A stretch of 32,957 nucleotides of DNA, from assembly GCA_945946665.1 (NCBI GenBank), contig CAMEWO010000024.1, positions 1-32,957 of the forward strand. Reading direction: 5' to 3'. The notes beneath the pieces were generated by a model. It saw only the letters and a list, made by a program, of their open reading frames with translations, had not been told where the DNA came from and made no database searches. Below, in pieces: positions 22,261-32,522 of this stretch. The translations under genes and the position numbers were made by a program. This stretch comes from an uncultured Eubacterium sp. (GTDB lineage Bacteria > Bacillota > Clostridia > Lachnospirales > Lachnospiraceae). The number at the start of each line of letters is the position of its first letter. The stretch's first letter is position 1.

Positions 22261-22803
22261 TTATTCTTTACCAGCTTTCAAGTCTTTAAATACATTCTTA
22301 CACAGTTTGAGCTTTGTTTTTCCTGCAGCATTGGTATATACCTTGGAATTCAGGGTATCTACCAATATTACATGAGCCTCGCTGTAACCTCGTGTATACA
22401 TCTTATAGTACTTAGTGAATCTGTATCCCTTAACCTTTCGGATAACATCCTTAGTTAGTGGACAACCACACACCATAATAAGTGTGAGGTATGAATACAT
22501 ATGATCTTTTTCTGGATCTGATCCATCATTTCTTACATAGTGGGGTTCCAGATAATCTGTCAAAACAGTAGTAAGCTGGTCAAAGTCCTCAACTGTGAAG
22601 GATTCCTCGTAAGTATTGATAATGCAGTATTCATGACTGTCACAGGCCCATAATTGTGCCTTCTTGACTAATACATACTTATCAACATGGGCATGAAAAC
22701 ATGCCAATGCATCGTAAGTATGTCCATTCCAGGTAAAAGGTCTGGTGAAATCGAAAGTGCTTTCAAAATATTTAATTAATCTATTAAAATATTTTGATAC
22801 CAT
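22261..22803 (-). CDS. Uncharacterised 180-aa protein upstream of cstA
   Basis: A soluble-looking protein without signal peptide. The pattern FDFTRPFTWNGHTYDALACFHAHVD (read in parts) and KYVLVKKAQLW resembles a small family I believe is labelled DUF8052, but I hold this loosely. The C-terminus is basic (KLKLCKNVFKDLKAGKE). AAGG lies before the ATG, and a strong promoter sits about 40 bp upstream. It leads into cstA, so a regulatory or accessory role for that transporter is possible. No catalytic motif was recognised. Confidence 0.7.
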   Translation of the reverse strand: MVSKYFNRLIKYFESTFDFTRPFTWNGHTYDALACFHAHVDKYVLVKKAQLWACDSHEYCIINTYEESFTVEDFDQLTTVLTDYLEPHYVRNDGSDPEKDHMYSYLTLIMVCGCPLTKDVIRKVKGYRFTKYYKMYTRGYSEAHVILVDTLNSKVYTNAAGKTKLKLCKNVFKDLKAGKE

Positions 22804-23041: not shown

Positions 23042-23096
23042 TTGAATATGAAAAACATATTTGCTACAATCTGCATTGGAGAAAGGAGATGGTCTT

Positions 23097-23783
23097 TTGG
23101 GGTCTATTGCTGAAAGATTAATGGACGAGCTGGAATGTAAGACCGTGTTTACTATTCCGGTATTTGGCGGAATAGCTGTTACTGAATCCGTTGTAGTTAC
23201 ATGGATAATCATGGCAGTATTGATACTGGTTTCATTCTTTCTTACCAGAAATCTTAAGATTAACAACATTAGCAAAAGACAGGCCGTGGCAGAGCTTATA
23301 GTAACCAAGCTGACAGGAATAGTTGAGAATATGATTGGACCGAAGGGAAAGGTATTCGTTCCTTATCTTACTACAGTTTTGTGTTACATAGGATTGTCCA
23401 ATATTATCGGGTTATTTGGTTTTAAGTCACCGACTAAGGATCTGACAGTAACCGTTGCCCTGGCAGTTATGAGTATCGTACTGGTGGAGGGTGCCGGAAT
23501 ATGTTTCCAGGGATTTAAGAAATGGCTGCACAGATTCACAGAACCAATGGTTATTGTAACACCAATTAATATTCTGGAAGTATTTACAAGGCCTTTGTCA
23601 CTCTGCATGCGACTATTTGGTAACGTATTAGGCGCATTTGTAATCATGGAACTTATTAAGATGGTAGTTCCAGTAATACTTCCATCTGTATTCAGTCTGT
23701 ACTTTGATTTATTTGACGGACTGTTGCAGGCGTATGTATTTGTATTTTTAACTTCCTTATATATACAGGAAGCAATAGAGTAA
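23097..23783 (+). CDS. atpB: ATP synthase F0 subunit a
   Basis: The 229-residue stator channel subunit of the F-type ATP synthase, in the cytoplasmic membrane. The C-terminal helices carry the conserved Arg in RPLSLCMRLFGNVLGAFV, and the chain ends in AYVFVFLTSLYIQEA. Start is uncertain: TTG at 23097 has AAGGAG eight bases upstream; ATG at 23121 gives a typical MDELECKTVFTIP N-terminus but only a weak ribosome site. An out-of-frame ATG at 23089 opens a 10-codon frame whose TAA overlaps that ATG (TAATG). First gene of the operon. Confidence 0.92.
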   Translation: MGSIAERLMDELECKTVFTIPVFGGIAVTESVVVTWIIMAVLILVSFFLTRNLKINNISKRQAVAELIVTKLTGIVENMIGPKGKVFVPYLTTVLCYIGLSNIIGLFGFKSPTKDLTVTVALAVMSIVLVEGAGICFQGFKKWLHRFTEPMVIVTPINILEVFTRPLSLCMRLFGNVLGAFVIMELIKMVVPVILPSVFSLYFDLFDGLLQAYVFVFLTSLYIQEAIE

Positions 23784-23816: not shown

Positions 23817-24041
23817 ATGGGTACACTTATAGCAATCGGAGCAGGAATTGCAGTATTTGGAGCAGTAGGAGCAGGTATAGGTATTGGTATAGCAACAGGT
23901 AAGGCATCTGAGGCAGTAGCAAGACAGCCAGAGGCAGATGGCAAAATCCGTAACATCCTTATTCTCGGATGCGCCCTTGCAGAGGCAACAGCTATCTATT
24001 GTTTCGTAATAGCACTTATGATAATTGTTATGCTTAAGTAA
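23817..24041 (+). CDS. atpE: ATP synthase F0 subunit c
   Basis: A 74-residue double-helix hairpin of the rotor ring. The polar loop ARQPEADGK and the ion-binding E56 in LAEATAIY are present. In sodium-type c subunits (I. tartaricus) a Gln stands in GxGQG and Ser follows the Glu; here the positions are Ile (GIGIGIA) and Ala (EAT). Thr and Tyr of the same site remain. Loss of two ligands favours proton coupling (inference from known structures). ACGGAGGAT precedes the ATG. Confidence 0.95.
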
Positions 24042-24098: not shown

Positions 24099-24584
24099 AT
24101 GATCAGGATAGATGCAGCCAATTTGATATTCACAGTAATCAACCTTTTAGTGTTGGTAGTGGCAATGAGAATTTTTCTGTTCAAGCCCGTTCAGAATATA
24201 ATCGCTAAACGTCAGGAAGAGGCGGATAAGCAGCTTCTTGAGGCAGCTAAGAAGCAGGAGGAAGCAGCGGCTTTGGAGCAGAAGTGTTCTGACACACTGA
24301 ACAACATTGAGGAAGAGAAGAAGAAAGCCTTAAGCGAAGCGAGAAAAGATGCAGATACTGCATATCAGAAGATTATTGATGATGCCAATAAGAAGGCAGA
24401 CAAGATCAAAGAAGATGCTGAGATTGAGGCAGAGAATACTAAGACACAGATAATTAAGAAGGCAGAGAAGGAAATTGCTGATATGGTTGTAAGTGCTGCT
24501 ACCAAGGTTGTGGCAGGAAACGATAATGTCAGTGTAGATAACTCTTTGTATGATGAATTTTTGAATAAAGCAGGTGAAGAATAG
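24099..24584 (+). CDS. atpF: ATP synthase F0 subunit b
   Basis: A 161-residue peripheral stalk subunit: one N-terminal membrane helix (about 8-28, [18 protein letters not shown]), then a long charged coiled coil with Lys/Glu/Ala repeats to about 135. It joins F0 to the delta part of F1. Its stop TAG overlaps the GTG start of the delta-alpha gene by one base (TAGTG), so the stalk partner is translated in direct coupling. Confidence 0.94.
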
Positions 24585-26608
24585 TGACTAATAAAGCATA
24601 TGAATATGCACAGGGTATGCATGATTTACATGTTTCCAGGGACTTAATCCAACAGGTTAATGGAATACTTGAAGCTGTTCCACAGGTAAGAGTTGATTTT
24701 GAAAATCCTTCAGTGCCAGTTGAGAAGAAGCACATGATAATTGACAGGATATTTCCTGAATCTGTAAGGAACTCTTTAAAGATATTATGTGACAATAATG
24801 ATTTTGCCCTCTGGAATGACATATGTGAGGCATATGAGAGCATAACCAGCACACCGGAGAAAAGGTGGTCAACGGCACAGCTTCTGTATGTGACACCACC
24901 CAACGAGGAACAGCTTGATAAAATAAGAAAGTTTCTTGCAAGGGAATATAATAATGAAGATATTACTATTGAGACTAAAGAAGATAAATCGCTGAAAAGT
25001 GGATTTATCTTAAGAGTAGGCTCTAAGGAATATGACTGGAGTGAGCAGGGAAGAATCAACCAGCTTAAGGATAAGATTAACAGTGCTGTGACCAGTTCAA
25101 CCGGTCTTAACATAAGCCAGGAAAATATTATCTCAATTCTTAAAGCAAGTATTGAGGACTTCCAGCTGGCGGCAAAGGACAAAGAGATTGGTGTTGTTAC
25201 ATATGTAGCTGACGGAATTGTGTCAGTAGATGGAATTGACCATGCCTGCTATGGTGAGATAGTTATATTTGACTGTGGCGTCAAGGGAATGGTTCAGGAT
25301 ATACGCCGTGATGATATTGGAGTTATCCTTTTCGGAAAGGAAACTGAGATATTTGAGGGAAGCCGTGTGGTAAGAACCGGGAAAATAGCAGGTATGCCAG
25401 TTGGTGAGGGATTCCTTGGAAGAATCGTTGATGCCCTGGGTAACCCTATTGACGGGCATGGAGAGATAGACGCAGCAGGTTACAGACCTCTGGAGAATCC
25501 GGCACCAAGTGTAGTTGACCGTGAATCTGTAAATGTTCCTATGGAGACAGGAATTCTTGCAATAGATTCTATGTTCCCAATAGGACGTGGACAGAGAGAG
25601 CTTATTATAGGTGACAGGCAGACAGGTAAGACATCCATTGCCATGGATACAATCCTTAACCAGAAGGGAAAAGGAGTTATATGTATATATGTGGCAATCG
25701 GACAGAAGGCTTCAACCGTTGCACAGCTTGTTAACACATTAAAGAAGAAGGGTGCCATGGATTATACTATTGTTGTATCAGCAACAGCTTCAGACCCGGC
25801 ACCATTACAGTATATTGCTCCATATTCAGGAGCAGCTCTGGCAGAGTACTTTATGTATAACGGCAGGGATGTACTTATTGTGTATGATGACCTTTCAAAG
25901 CACGCAGTGGCGTACAGAGCCATTTCCCTGCTTCTTGAGCGTTCTCCTGGCCGGGAGGCTTATCCTGGAGATGTATTCTATCTTCACTCAAGACTTCTGG
26001 AGAGGTCAGCCAGAATTACAAAAGAGCTTGGAGGAGGTTCCATAACAGCACTGCCTATTATTGAAACTCAGGCAGGTGATGTGTCAGCCTACATACCAAC
26101 TAATGTAATATCTATCACTGATGGACAGATATATCTGGAGAGTGAGTTGTTTAACGCAGGTCAGAGACCAGCGGTTAACGTAGGTCTTTCTGTATCAAGA
26201 GTTGGTGGTGCTGCCCAGAATAAGGCCATGAAAAAGGCAGCAGGAAGCATACGTATTGACCTTGCACAGTACAGGGAGATGGAAGTGTTTACCCAGTTCT
26301 CATCTGACCTGGACGATAATACCAAAAAGCAGCTGGCTCATGGAAGTGCCTTGATGGAGCTGTTAAAACAGCCTACAGGTTCACCTCTGTCAATGGAGCA
26401 GCAGGTTGTTATATTAGTGTGTGCCAATGCACATGTATTCAGTGATATTCCGGTTGATAAAATCAGAGGTTTCAAGAATGAATTGCTTAAGTTCTTTGAC
26501 AGAAGCCATCCGGAAATATTAAGCAGCATAGTGTCAGCAGGAGGACTTCCAGAAGACCTTGTGGCTTCTATTGTGGATGCGGCAAAGGAATTCAAGGCTT
26601 CAGTTTAA
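24584..26608 (+). CDS. atpH-atpA: ATP synthase F1 delta-alpha fusion
   Basis: One uninterrupted 674-codon frame. Residues 1 to about 168 are a delta subunit ([10 protein letters not shown] at the start, [20 protein letters not shown] near 139-158), and about 172-674 a complete alpha subunit ([17 protein letters not shown] at 177-193, Walker A GDRQTGKT at 343-350, the arginine finger R539 in SVSRVGG). The sum fits 175 plus 502 residues. No stop, ATG or ribosome site for a separate alpha is seen at the junction; the first internal Met of alpha is near 236. So alpha would be made only as part of the fusion, giving three delta copies per F1 unless the protein is cut. Start is GTG, overlapping atpF. 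Confidence 0.93.
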
Positions 26609-26623
26609 TTTTTGGAGATTATT

Positions 26624-27580
26624 ATGGCTAATGCAAGAGAAATTCAAAACAGAATAAAAAGTATCCAGGATACGATGAAGATTACCAATGCCATGTATAT
26701 GATGTCATCCATGAAGCTTAGGAAGGCAAAGAAGAAACTGGAGGATACAGAACCTTATTTCATCGAACTTCAGAAGATTATCTCTGAGATACTTCTTCAT
26801 TTTCCGGATATGCGGCATATGTATTTTGATAACAGAGCCAAGGATATGCAGGAGAGTGTAAAGAAAAAGGGATATGTAATAATTACTGGAGACAAGGGTC
26901 TGGCAGGAGCATACAATCATAATGTAATGAAAGAAGCCCAGAGACTTGTAGACGAATCTTCTGATTATAAGCTGTACATAGTAGGTGAGCTGGGAAGGAG
27001 TTATTTTGGCAGAAACGGATACAATGTGGATTCTGCATTCTGCTATTCTGCTAATAATCCTTCCATGCACAGAGCCAGGGTAATTGCAGAGTACCTTCTT
27101 AAACTGTATAAGGAGGAAGAACTGGATGAGATTGACATAGTATTTACCAATATGAACAGCAGCATAAGCGAGGAGGTTGTGGTAAAGCAGTTACTGCCAT
27201 TAAAAACCCACAACTTCATTAAACAGGAGCTGATGGATGACATGGTTTCCTCAAAACAGAAGTATGATGCTGAGACTCTGGAAAAAGCAGATGACTGGTA
27301 TCTTATATATCCTTCTCCACGGAAGGTTCTGGAAAAGGTTGTATATAATTATGTAACAGGATTCGTATATGGCGCCCTGGTTGAGGGCTCTGCCAGTGAG
27401 GAGAATGCCAGAATGCTGGCTATGCAGTCTGCTACAGAGAATGCCCAGGCTATGTTAAAGGAGTTGTCTGTTGAGTACAACAGAGTGCGTCAGGCTGCTA
27501 TTACCCAGGAGATAACAGAGGTTATTGGTGGTGCTAAGGCTCTCAAGAAGAAGAAAATGAAACAAAGGCAGGAAAGATGA
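26624..27580 (+). CDS. atpG: ATP synthase F1 gamma subunit
   Basis: The 318-residue central rotor shaft. Both coiled-coil ends are clear: NAREIQNRIKSIQDTMKITNAM at the N-terminus (given here by its first and last words) and SEENARMLAMQSATENA with GGAKAL near the C-terminus. It is about 30 residues longer than most gammas, partly because of a basic tail (KKKKMKQRQER) and partly from the middle domain. The ATG at 26624 has GGAG six bases upstream; an in-frame codon at 26612 is not supported. Confidence 0.94.
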   Translation: MANAREIQNRIKSIQDTMKITNAMYMMSSMKLRKAKKKLEDTEPYFIELQKIISEILLHFPDMRHMYFDNRAKDMQESVKKKGYVIITGDKGLAGAYNHNVMKEAQRLVDESSDYKLYIVGELGRSYFGRNGYNVDSAFCYSANNPSMHRARVIAEYLLKLYKEEELDEIDIVFTNMNSSISEEVVVKQLLPLKTHNFIKQELMDDMVSSKQKYDAETLEKADDWYLIYPSPRKVLEKVVYNYVTGFVYGALVEGSASEENARMLAMQSATENAQAMLKELSVEYNRVRQAAITQEITEVIGGAKALKKKKMKQRQER

Positions 27581-28993
<1,413 letters not shown>

Positions 28994-29062: not shown

Positions 29063-29494
29063 ATGAATACCTTCAATTTAAGAATAATAGCCTGTGATAA
29101 GGTGTTTTATGAAGGACCATGTGAGATACTTATATTCCCCGGTTATGACGGACAGATGGCAGTTATGGCTAATCATGAGACCATGACTACAGCCATTGAG
29201 ATTGGTGAGATTAAATTCCGTGTTCCGGGAAGTAGTGAATACAGGATTGCTGTTGTGTCGGACGGATTAATGTGCGTAGGGCACAATCAGGTTGTTATAG
29301 TTGTGTATTCAGCGGAGCGTCCGGAGGATATTGATAAATTCAGGGCCCAGGCTGCCCTTGAGAGAGCAAGGGAACAGCTGCAGCAGAAGCAGAGTATTAT
29401 GGAATATCATATTTCCAAGGCTTCCCTGGCAAGGGCGATGGCACGATTAAGCAGTGCCAGCCACAGCAACAGAAGTTTTAATGATCCACAATGA
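29063..29494 (+). CDS. atpC: ATP synthase F1 epsilon subunit
   Basis: A 143-residue subunit with the N-terminal beta sandwich (FPGYDGQMAVMANHE, about 27-41) and a C-terminal helical hairpin (ALERAREQLQQKQSI) that can block the rotor. GGAG precedes the ATG. The 69-bp gap after atpD contains a small hairpin ATAAGC-CTTTC-GCTTAT and a TTGACA without a good -10. Last gene of the operon. Confidence 0.94.
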   Translation: MNTFNLRIIACDKVFYEGPCEILIFPGYDGQMAVMANHETMTTAIEIGEIKFRVPGSSEYRIAVVSDGLMCVGHNQVVIVVYSAERPEDIDKFRAQAALERAREQLQQKQSIMEYHISKASLARAMARLSSASHSNRSFNDPQ

Positions 29495-29744: not shown

Positions 29745-29758
29745 GGGGTGCGATGTTA

Positions 29759-30481
29759 ATGAATATAGCCATATGTGATGATGAAAAGATATTTATAGAA
29801 AGAATTAATGATGGAATAACCGGGTATTTCAGAAAGAATGACATGGATTACACAGTTACATCTTTTACGTCGGGGCAGGATTTTATTGCTCTAGGGGAGA
29901 ATGTGCTGGAATTCAATCTCGTGTTTCTTGACATCTGTATGGAAAACAGCAATGGACTGGAAGTGGCAAAGTTCATAAGACAGCAGTCTAAGGATATATT
30001 AATTGTGTTTGTAAGTGCTTTTATTGATTATTCCGTTCAAGGCTATCATTTTGATGCATTAAGGTACATATTAAAAGATGCCATGCTTGGCAGGGCGATA
30101 GAAGAGAGCCTGGATGTTGCTTTATCACGAATAGAGCATAAGAATATATATATTGAGGAAGAATTCAATGAAGGCAAGAGAAAATTCGCACTGTGTAACC
30201 TGTATTATATTGAGTGTATAAAACATTGGCTGTATTTTCACATATATGATGGTAATGCCATGAAGGTATATAAGACATACAAAACCATGAAGAGTATTGA
30301 AGAAAAATATTTTAGCCATAATTTTCTGGAAGTCCGTAAGGGGGTTCTTGTTAATCCCGAAAAAGTGAAAAATGTTTTGAGGTATGAAATGAAGCTGGAT
30401 AATGATGATATCATAGTCATACCTAAGGAAAAGTATATGATGGTCAAGAATAGCATTATGTCATACAGGGAGGATATGTAG
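29759..30481 (+). CDS. LytTR response regulator (AgrA-like)
   Basis: A 240-residue two-component regulator. The receiver domain starts NIAICDDEK and has the phosphoacceptor D58 in VFLDICMENSNG; the LytTR DNA-binding domain occupies about 140-238 (LYYIECIKHWLYFH, FLEVRKGVLVNPEKV). The usual Lys-Pro near the end of the receiver is Lys-Asp here (YILKDAM). Two starts are possible: ATG 29753 is 4 bases from AGGGGG, ATG 29759 is 10 bases away and gives the normal MNIAICDDE. The kinase gene begins directly after its stop. Predicted to bind the repeats at 29591 and 32632, thereby controlling itself and the secreted product. Confidence 0.9.
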   Translation: MNIAICDDEKIFIERINDGITGYFRKNDMDYTVTSFTSGQDFIALGENVLEFNLVFLDICMENSNGLEVAKFIRQQSKDILIVFVSAFIDYSVQGYHFDALRYILKDAMLGRAIEESLDVALSRIEHKNIYIEEEFNEGKRKFALCNLYYIECIKHWLYFHIYDGNAMKVYKTYKTMKSIEEKYFSHNFLEVRKGVLVNPEKVKNVLRYEMKLDNDDIIVIPKEKYMMVKNSIMSYREDM

Positions 30482-31792
30482 ATGGTGAATTTTATCTATA
30501 GTATGGTAGTAATTGCTTTTCAAGAGATATGCTCAGATATTTTATTTAGTTCTTTCAGTGTTAAGCGATATAAAAGTAAATTTATTAACATTGTAATATA
30601 TGCTTTGCTGGCTGTATCATTTTTTATAGTAGCTAATACAGATTATATAAGGAATAATATGTTTCTTAAAATAATAATTGTAATTTTGTTATATTCGTTG
30701 GCTGTGTATACGTTATACAGGAACAGTATTGTTAAAAGCATTGTGTTATCGACATTATTTGAGACTTTAGCGTGTGTCTGTGATTTTTTCGTACTTTTTA
30801 TTTTTACACAAATATTGGGAAATCTGACTGGTATTGTAGATGATTTAGACCCAGTTGGAAGTGTAATTGTTGTTAGCAGTAGTTCATTATTGTTTATTAT
30901 TGTTATAATAGCCAGGAGTGTGTTTTACAGGAAGAATGCAGAGGTAATGTCTGTTAAGGAATGGGTAAAATTCATGGCCTGCCCACTTATAACTATGTGT
31001 ATTCTGTGCTCGATTGTGGGAGGGTCAGGTGGAATTAAAGGTATTCAGTCTGATAATGTGAATCTAATAATATTAATGGGGCTTATTTTCATTAATGTTT
31101 CACAGTACTATATGTTGAATGATACACTTGTAAGTCAGGCTAAGATAAGAGAAGATGACAGAATGAGAACGGAGATGGAATCACAGATAAGGCTGTATGA
31201 ATCTATATCTGATAATTATGAGAAACAGAAGAAAATAGCTCACGAATATAAGAATCATCTGCAATGTATCAATACTCTGGCAGTTAAGAAACAATATGAT
31301 GAGTTAAAGGACTATGTTGGTAAACTGTGTAAAAAACAGGATAGTGTAATGTATGCCATTAATACGAATAATCCAATCATTAATGCCGTTGTTAATACTA
31401 AGTATCAGAAGGCTGTGGACAACGAGATTCTGTTATCCTTTTTAGTTGATGATTTATCAGATTTGAAGGTGGATGATGAGGATATGGTTGTCATACTTTC
31501 CAATCTGTTGAATAATGCTTTGGAAGCATGTAAGAAGTGTGATGAAAGAATTATAAGATTGAAAATCATTAGGGAAGATGGGGATATTCTTATCTCTGTA
31601 GAAAATAACTGTAATGTTACAGTGACATCCAATAAAGGAAGTTTCATGACTACTAAGACTGATAATCCGGAAGAACATGGAATTGGAATTAAGAATGTAA
31701 TTAATCTGGTTGAGAAGTATAATGGAACTTATACTATAAAAAGTGACGATAAAAAGTTTGTATTTTCAATTGTAATACCTAAGGGGTATTAA
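30482..31792 (+). CDS. GHKL sensor histidine kinase (AgrC-like)
   Basis: A 436-residue membrane kinase of the AgrC type. About six hydrophobic helices fill residues 1-215, a coiled linker follows, and the phosphoacceptor H254 sits in AHEYKNHLQ. The ATPase part has the N-box NLLNNALEAC (341-350) and G-box EEHGIGIKN (397-405), typical of HATPase_c_5. It should sense the cyclic peptide outside the cell and phosphorylate the LytTR regulator. GGGAGG in the 3' end of the regulator gene provides the ribosome site; the ATG adjoins the stop. Confidence 0.92.
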   Translation: MVNFIYSMVVIAFQEICSDILFSSFSVKRYKSKFINIVIYALLAVSFFIVANTDYIRNNMFLKIIIVILLYSLAVYTLYRNSIVKSIVLSTLFETLACVCDFFVLFIFTQILGNLTGIVDDLDPVGSVIVVSSSSLLFIIVIIARSVFYRKNAEVMSVKEWVKFMACPLITMCILCSIVGGSGGIKGIQSDNVNLIILMGLIFINVSQYYMLNDTLVSQAKIREDDRMRTEMESQIRLYESISDNYEKQKKIAHEYKNHLQCINTLAVKKQYDELKDYVGKLCKKQDSVMYAINTNNPIINAVVNTKYQKAVDNEILLSFLVDDLSDLKVDDEDMVVILSNLLNNALEACKKCDERIIRLKIIREDGDILISVENNCNVTVTSNKGSFMTTKTDNPEEHGIGIKNVINLVEKYNGTYTIKSDDKKFVFSIVIPKGY

Positions 31793-31811
31793 TTGCAGAG
31801 GATATGGTGGA

Positions 31812-32387
31812 ATGATACACAGGGTAATAGCAGGCATAGTTGGTCAGATGGCAAGAGAAGGTCTTATTATGCCACAGGAAACTGAGAATTATGTATATAC
31901 TTATGAGGTGATATGTGAAAAGGTAATTTCATTGGGAGCGATTATGATATTGGGGCTGATGCTTAATAATATTGTTAATACTGTATTATATATGATGTTT
32001 TTGCTTTCGCTTCGTAAGAGAACAGGTGGATTTCACATGCCGTCTTTCTTTATGTGTTATGTTAGTTCGATTTCTGTGTACATACTGACATATTGCTGTA
32101 TAAGATATATGTATGACTTTTATGTGTTCATAATATTATTTTCAATATCAGTATTAGTAATAGGGATTATTGGGACTGTTAATCATCCAGATATGCATAT
32201 GAATTCTGCAGAGTTATCTGGAAGCAAGAGAATAGCGAGAATTAATCTGGCAATAGAGTTAGGTGTCATTATTATTTCAATATATATTGGCATAGATAAG
32301 GTAAGTATTGGCTATATGATGATGGGAGTGATTCAGTGTGCATTTCTGTTGTTCATGGCTAAAATTATTAAGCAGGAGGTGAAATAA
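31812..32387 (+). CDS. agrB: AgrB-type peptide processing protease
   Basis: A 191-residue integral membrane cysteine protease that trims the AgrD precursor and forms its thiolactone ring. The motif LRKRTGGFH ends with H75, and C82 follows seven residues later, the same spacing as H77 and C84 of S. aureus AgrB. Hydrophobic helices surround it. The kinase stop lies 19 bp upstream. The 3' end of the gene carries AGGAGGTGA, the ribosome site for agrD, so the two are translationally linked. Confidence 0.93.
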   Translation: MIHRVIAGIVGQMAREGLIMPQETENYVYTYEVICEKVISLGAIMILGLMLNNIVNTVLYMMFLLSLRKRTGGFHMPSFFMCYVSSISVYILTYCCIRYMYDFYVFIILFSISVLVIGIIGTVNHPDMHMNSAELSGSKRIARINLAIELGVIIISIYIGIDKVSIGYMMMGVIQCAFLLFMAKIIKQEVK

Positions 32388-32522
32388 GTGGAACAGTTAA
32401 AGAGAAAGAGTCTTAAGGTACTGAAGGATATGACAAAGATGGTTGTAAAGCAGAAATCAGAAGAATGGCCACCAGTTTGTCCAAGTATACTATATCAACC
32501 AAAGAGACCAGAGAAGAAGTGA
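32388..32522 (+). CDS. agrD: AgrD-like autoinducer precursor
   Basis: A 44-residue precursor with GTG start, six bases after AGGAGGTGA and directly abutting the agrB stop. The N-terminus (MEQLKRKSLKVLKDMTKMVV) is basic and amphipathic, as in AgrD. The only Cys is in WPPVCPSIL, followed by YQPKRPEKK. Listeria AgrD has CFMFV followed by YEPKSP, and clostridial AgrDs have similar YQPK tails, so a five-residue ring CPSIL is predicted, cut before Tyr (inference). The tail is short and basic rather than acidic. Position after agrB strongly supports the call. Confidence 0.88.
   Translation: MEQLKRKSLKVLKDMTKMVVKQKSEEWPPVCPSILYQPKRPEKK

Follow-up and report, generated by a model that had tools for sequence, protein, structure and literature searches.

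A single gene from an uncultured Eubacterium species (Lachnospiraceae) encodes the delta and alpha subunits of an F-type ATP synthase as one polypeptide. It lies in the 32,957-nucleotide stretch of DNA analyzed here, contig CAMEWO010000024.1 (hereafter the window), and forms one frame of 674 codons without internal stops, which begins with a GTG overlapping the stop codon of the b gene by one base and ends with a stop at 26606-26608 (Table 1). Judged from gene content, it is the only delta and the only alpha gene in a complete second F-ATPase operon of proton type. The fused frame is conserved among relatives, alpha has no start signal of its own in it, all parts of the protein are under selection, and the delta N-terminal domain is repeatedly absent from related fusions. 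Because every F1 takes three alphas, each F1 would probably carry three delta moieties. The reading that we prefer, an uncut delta-alpha chain with three delta moieties per F1 and one to three peripheral stalks possible, has in our judgment about an even chance of being right.

In the 674-residue protein a complete alpha follows a complete delta (OSCP). The Pfam OSCP match spans residues 6-164 and profile positions 10-171, the three Pfam alpha domains span residues 201-670, and the NCBIfam atpA model (TIGR00962) covers residues 177-672 with 759 bits against a cut-off of 484. In an alignment of 43 sequences the Walker A motif GDRQTGK is invariant and the adjoining T nearly so. An AlphaFold2 model of the window protein, built with 43 fused sequences, shows six helices in the delta N-terminal domain (residues 3-88) and a beta-alpha-beta-beta-beta-alpha fold in the C-terminal domain (residues 97-170), followed by a helix at residues 177-199 and alpha. 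By blocks, pLDDT is 66-87 for residues 1-160 and below 50 for the junction (168-199) and parts of alpha, with a value of 67 for the whole. The delta C-terminal domain is the canonical docking site for b2. The N-terminal domain, kept in the window protein, is the part missing from the relatives termed deltaDN-alpha. Frame, Pfam, NCBIfam, and relatives thus bear out the claim of the initial annotation that delta and alpha are fused in one 674-codon frame.

Table 1. Features of the F-ATPase operon in the window
Feature	Position	Strand	Evidence
a subunit	23061..23783	+	Frame from TTG (start provisional); profile matches
c subunit, proton-type, GAGIGIG...ALAEAT, no Gln at sodium-ligand position	23817..24041	+	Pfam, motif
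b subunit, separate 161-aa frame with own stop	24099..24584	+	Frame list, Pfam
delta-alpha fusion gene	24584..26608	+	Frame, Pfam, NCBIfam; kept in relatives
delta N-terminal domain, approximately residues 1-96, six-helix bundle	24584..24871	+	Pfam OSCP, model, dN/dS
delta C-terminal domain, approximately residues 97-166	24872..25081	+	Pfam OSCP, model; found in fused sequences of relatives
Junction/linker, approximately residues 167-176	25082..25111	+	Low model confidence at 168-199
alpha with its own N-terminal helix, residues 177-674	25112..26605	+	TIGR00962, invariant Walker A
gamma subunit	26612..27580	+	Frame from TTG (start provisional); Pfam, NCBIfam
beta subunit	27593..28993	+	Pfam, NCBIfam
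epsilon subunit	29063..29494	+	Pfam, NCBIfam

A sequencing artefact or frameshift at the junction was considered and is ruled out, since the fused frame recurs in many assemblies; the search of related genomes removes this worry of the initial annotation. A separate assembly (L012/L031), 98% identical, has the same fused frame. Named genomes were scanned as well, and of 589 loci the best 80 by match, a set biased to near relatives, were kept. Judged from frame length, 73 of the 80 contain the fused frame (54 full-length, 19 half) and 7 are unfused. The 19 half-fusions lack the delta N-terminal domain, their frames starting near residue 98 of the window protein; stop-to-stop frames measure 581-604 aa in 17 of them. 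Among 21 genomes of the same genus, seven have the full-length fusion (68-98% identity), five (G002, G012, G015, G017, and G019) encode a second, unfused alpha of this type that is 71-76% identical (cut short in G017), and nine have no second copy of this alpha type among the matches listed. Outside the genus, G023 is half-fused and G024, from another genus, is unfused. Records of the scan of named genomes that carry no metagenome-bin label include Pseudobutyrivibrio ruminis DSM 9787, P. xylanivorans DSM 14809, Agathobacter ruminis JK623, strain GAM79 (a complete genome), and Caproiciproducens galactitolivorans YR-4.

The fusion extends well beyond the genus. An even sample of 391 genomes from the class was screened for an uninterrupted frame of at least 575 residues reaching into delta, and at least 35 fused genomes from 15 families were counted by hand among the matches listed, nine of them full length. 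All 18 regions retrieved from those 35 genomes (15 + 3) were fused, and five further regions of the class sample without such a frame were all unfused. Pfam detected OSCP in each of ten fused proteins; seven of these are half-fusions, in which the match is confined to the C-terminal part of OSCP. Among 398 genomes sampled from the phylum there were at least nine fused frames; among the matches listed only two are full length, both in the window's family, and four half-fusions lie beyond the window's class. L178-L181 represent deltaDN-alpha frames of genomes outside that class. A model of a half-fusion has a pLDDT of 59 overall, with the delta C-terminal part confident. In one half-fused group (L120-L125 and L128) the a subunit is only about 22-26% identical to that of the window, and the membrane part of these enzymes may be of another lineage.

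The window operon reads a-c-b-(delta alpha)-gamma-beta-epsilon and encodes all eight F-type subunit types together. The separate single delta subunit of F-type ATP synthases is absent from it, and the sole other OSCP protein found in the genome (2.45 Mb in 48 contigs) belongs to a canonical F-ATPase operon on contig C2, which encodes a separate delta (182 aa) and alpha (502 aa). The gamma frame of the window comprises 322 aa from its TTG (possibly with a later ATG start) and so exceeds the Pfam and TIGR01146 profiles, which have 285-286 positions. A 180-aa frame (22264-22803, minus strand) that lies directly upstream of the operon has no Pfam match at E 0.001. Just downstream an agr-type quorum-sensing locus (29753-32522, plus strand) encodes a LytTR response regulator, a GHKL sensor kinase, and AgrB, as identified by Pfam; a 44-aa frame directly after AgrB resembles an AgrD peptide when judged by eye (...PPVCPSILYQPKRPEKK).

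Sodium-type c subunits carry a Gln in helix 1 and an ES or ET pair in helix 2. The canonical operon of the window's genome has this motif (GPGIGQG ... AVAETT, with Gln and ETT), whereas the window c subunit lacks it, with Ile in place of Gln and EA after the carboxylate. The Ile is found in 80 of 80 operons related to that of the window, fused or unfused, and GQG and ETT were found by tblastn in the c subunits of 14 of 14 canonical operons from other genomes (L173, too short, was left out). By these motifs, the fusion belongs to a second F-ATPase of proton type that accompanies a normal sodium-type operon. A link to an Ech hydrogenase in the window's genome is unsupported, as a NiFe-hydrogenase large subunit was not found there. 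RnfC was found, and with Rnf present and that large subunit not found, the window enzyme may instead spend ATP to pump protons.

With two alphas in one cell, hexamers of fused and plain canonical alpha might assemble with one delta per F1. A canonical alpha is indeed encoded in the window's genome, and a search of 50 of the 80 genomes (49 fused and the unfused L084) with canonical alpha, at E 1e-100 or better, recovered one in 40 of the 49 fused genomes. However, in the other nine no second F-type alpha was found at this threshold, and each has exactly one OSCP match, the fusion itself. L079 is among these nine, several of which are draft or metagenome assemblies. Moreover, the two alphas of the window's genome are about 58% identical and the two operons differ in ion motif. 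Mixing would be possible in most of these fused genomes but seems to be no general requirement, and we regard mixed hexamers as a highly improbable solution.

The stoichiometry problem raised by the initial annotation, three alphas against one delta per F1, is genuine. The initial annotation had stated that the frame has no internal start. This needs amending in one respect: a single in-frame GTG does occur at the junction (V169, 25088-25090), although it lacks a Shine-Dalgarno match and is missing from the 98% identical twin. In 12 unfused sister genes, several of them near-identical, alpha starts with GTG or TTG eight codons before a conserved IISI, behind a Shine-Dalgarno sequence of 7 or 8 bases (GGAGGTGA in 11, GAGGTGA in one). 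Junctions were compared in 78 fused genes (59 full, 19 half) after four duplicate rows had been dropped. An in-frame start codon is found at most 25 codons before IISI in 48 of these, and a start codon with a Shine-Dalgarno match of at least 5 bases in 13; a match of at least 7 bases was found in none of the 78, compared with all 12 unfused sisters. The TGA stop of delta forms the end of the alpha Shine-Dalgarno sequence in seven of the 12 sisters, delta and alpha share a frame in seven, and both features coincide in two, L084 (with a second stop adjoining) and L099. If a gene such as L099 lost a single stop, the two genes could be fused and the alpha start weakened at once.

An internal start for free alpha was also looked for at residues 13-260 of the 59 full fusions, and no conserved site was found in the delta part or the junction. 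Some in-frame start with a match of at least 5 bases occurs within these residues in 46 of the 59; among the true gene starts, which served as a control, 47 of 59 do. One site is widely shared (35/59), at window residue 238 inside alpha, where the codons are forced by a conserved KGM motif. Two genes are exceptions. L079 (C. galactitolivorans YR-4) has AAGGAG, a 6-base match, and an in-frame ATG at the junction, the only such junction of the 78; fused and free alpha could possibly be made from this one gene, and no other F-type alpha was found in the genome. L077 has GAGGTGA and an in-frame TTG near residue 99, close to the delta domain boundary, from which a deltaDN-alpha protein could possibly be made by a full-length gene.

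Such starts, together with the junction GTG of the window and a linker that is variable and modelled with low confidence, speak for an F1 of one delta-alpha and two plain alphas, with the free alpha arising by internal initiation or by post-translational cutting. Against this, the junction starts are not conserved and the Shine-Dalgarno match of 7 or 8 bases of the unfused sisters is missing from every fused junction. Furthermore, if delta were cut off, it is hard to see an advantage for deltaDN-alpha lineages in dropping the N-terminal domain. We therefore consider a supply of free alpha by either route unlikely.

The history of the gene was traced in trees of alpha. A quick tree of 122 alphas contains at least 14 changes of architecture. 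A careful tree of 83 rows (39 remote, canonical, or near-duplicate rows were left out) contains at least 10, or at least eight when full and half fusions alone are counted, several weak backbone branches making the exact number uncertain. Forcing the 17 half-fusions into one clade was rejected (log-likelihood 203 lower, p-AU 4e-72). As regain of a lost domain is implausible, changes between full and half fusions are read as losses, and the best tree suggests that the delta N-terminal domain was lost repeatedly, about eight times, in fused lineages. The full fusion L104 falls together with three unfused genes (100/99). Separate from the main fused clade are L119 (by unfused L129), the L120 and L111 groups, and L126 (by unfused L116 and L117). 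This suggests about six separate fusion events, if the unfused state is ancestral.

Transfer of the missing domain to the b subunit was ruled out: the half-fused frame begins at the end of b, and the median length of b is 161, 162, and 163 aa in full, half, and unfused operons, respectively. On this evidence the domain is gone from half-fusions rather than moved into b. In 15 half-fused genomes, an OSCP match was found on the fused frame in 14, always within profile positions 88-172 (G478 lies below the family cut-off and G486 was read through one stop), and none was found on the fused frame of G452. The full delta of a canonical operon is also present in 12 of the 15, while G458, G480, and G481 have no other OSCP match in the genome.

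In full fusions the ratio of mean dN to mean dS is 0.10 in alpha, 0.18 in the delta C-terminal domain, and 0.26 in the delta N-terminal domain. Of the 133 pairs retained for unsaturated dS in alpha, 89 gave N-terminal and 98 C-terminal values. Across 210 pairs from the same 21 genomes, mean identity of the N-terminal domain is 39% in fused and 46% in canonical deltas, and that of the C-terminal domain is 52% and 53%. Relaxed decay of the N-terminal domain in full fusions was considered on these grounds and is only mild; with dN/dS well below 1, the domain is, by this measure, under purifying selection that is still at work.

A selected N-terminal domain, modelled as a six-helix bundle, is what would be expected if the fused chain formed a normal single-stalk enzyme, in which one delta is seated, two hang free, and the fusion only secures the supply and anchoring of delta. 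The authors of PMC12229609 likewise conclude that this domain limits the enzyme to a single stalk. If two of the three N-terminal domains are idle, the third still seems to be needed, which counts against the boldest reading, and a domain that is kept and selected points to one seated delta and perhaps to a single stalk. The repeated loss of the domain in fused lineages, however, suggests that it is not needed for anchoring there, and an enzyme with two idle delta domains would bear a permanent cost. A plain single-stalk enzyme is thus a serious possibility, which we hold somewhat short of probable.

In our preferred reading, the uncut chain with three delta moieties, one delta would be seated normally, with its N-terminal domain lying on the F1 axis while its C-terminal domain holds b2. 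The remaining two alphas carry delta C-terminal domains that could dock b2 as well, together with an a subunit, so that the head could carry one to three peripheral stalks while two N-terminal domains are displaced. Anchoring, normally the task of the delta N-terminal domain, would pass to the covalent link; the domain would then be dispensable, which would account for its repeated loss in relatives. Loss would lead to the deltaDN-alpha form, which builds up to three stalks in the laboratory. With more a subunits around each ring, the number of protons per ATP would rise, an advantage when the proton-motive force is low. The three outcomes listed by the initial annotation (three delta domains, proteolytic cutting, or a changed stalk) remain the right list, within which relatives and the engineered enzyme favor three deltas, possibly with a multiplied stalk. 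It is a real possibility, though less likely than not, that the many lineages that independently dropped the domain became symmetric three-stalk machines with a high proton-per-ATP ratio. If so, F-type enzymes with several stalks would be a common natural feature of anaerobic gut bacteria.

To our knowledge, one delta and one peripheral stalk per F-type ATP synthase have been treated as fixed. The natural series of separate genes, full fusion, and half fusion, with many independent losses and with named strains among its members, makes the evolution of the gear ratio testable. In the engineered enzyme, stalk number sets the protons per ATP (PMC12229609), and in the accessible text of the literature found, a gear ratio changed by added stalks is described for that enzyme only. 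A search of full-text literature, mostly non-subscription, returned among the matches listed no description of a full-length delta-alpha fusion, its spread, its link to a proton-type operon, or the repeated loss of the N-terminal domain.

Delta is joined to a different operon neighbor in other known systems. A b-delta fusion is known from mycobacteria and Gordonia (PMC5709465), and in N-ATPases delta is absent or fused with b (PMC11738941). As in the window, delta is joined there to the product of a neighboring gene, but the partner is b rather than alpha, and b of the window is separate. The N-ATPase gene order, given as beta-epsilon-X-X-a-c-b-alpha-gamma (PMC11738941), also differs from that of the window operon.

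Another parallel is provided by P. ruminis, whose membranes are reported in reviews to have sodium- and proton-dependent ATP synthase activities (PMC11026938, PMC11187502, on work of Schoelmerich 2020). Like the window's genome, it combines one sodium-type and one proton-type F-ATPase per cell; in strain DSM 9787 (L034/G438) the operon with the proton-type c subunit contains a full delta-alpha fusion and the other a sodium-type c. As its proton-type operon is the fused one, the fused enzyme is probably active in DSM 9787, although the assayed strain may differ. The fusion goes unmentioned in the accessible text of these reports (PMC11026938, PMC11187502).

Among the closest known systems is the deltaDN-alpha enzyme, and in view of it the impression of the initial annotation, which knew of no described delta-alpha fusion, is not supported. 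In engineered Bacillus PS3 FoF1 bearing deltaDN-alpha, up to three peripheral stalks were seen by cryo-EM, with up to three a subunits and an H+/ATP of 5.8 (PMC12229609). A natural deltaDN-alpha fusion is already in print as well, in Acidaminococcus fermentans and two UniProt entries (PMC12229609, 2025). In a PDB search with the window protein, 9jc1_I, a 580-aa chain named delta subunit plus alpha subunit, was the only one among 60 listed of 161 matches to align from the delta part through alpha (query 104-667); from its name and length it is taken to be the construct of PMC12229609. As in the window, the engineered enzyme has the delta C-terminal domain fused to the N-terminus of alpha and no separate delta. 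The window fusion differs in being natural, in its place in a proton-type second operon, and in keeping the delta N-terminal domain, which is missing in A. fermentans and which the engineers removed to allow several stalks (PMC12229609). The half-fused relatives, nearly the same size as the 580-aa chain, share the engineered design, and the window protein represents the stage before it.
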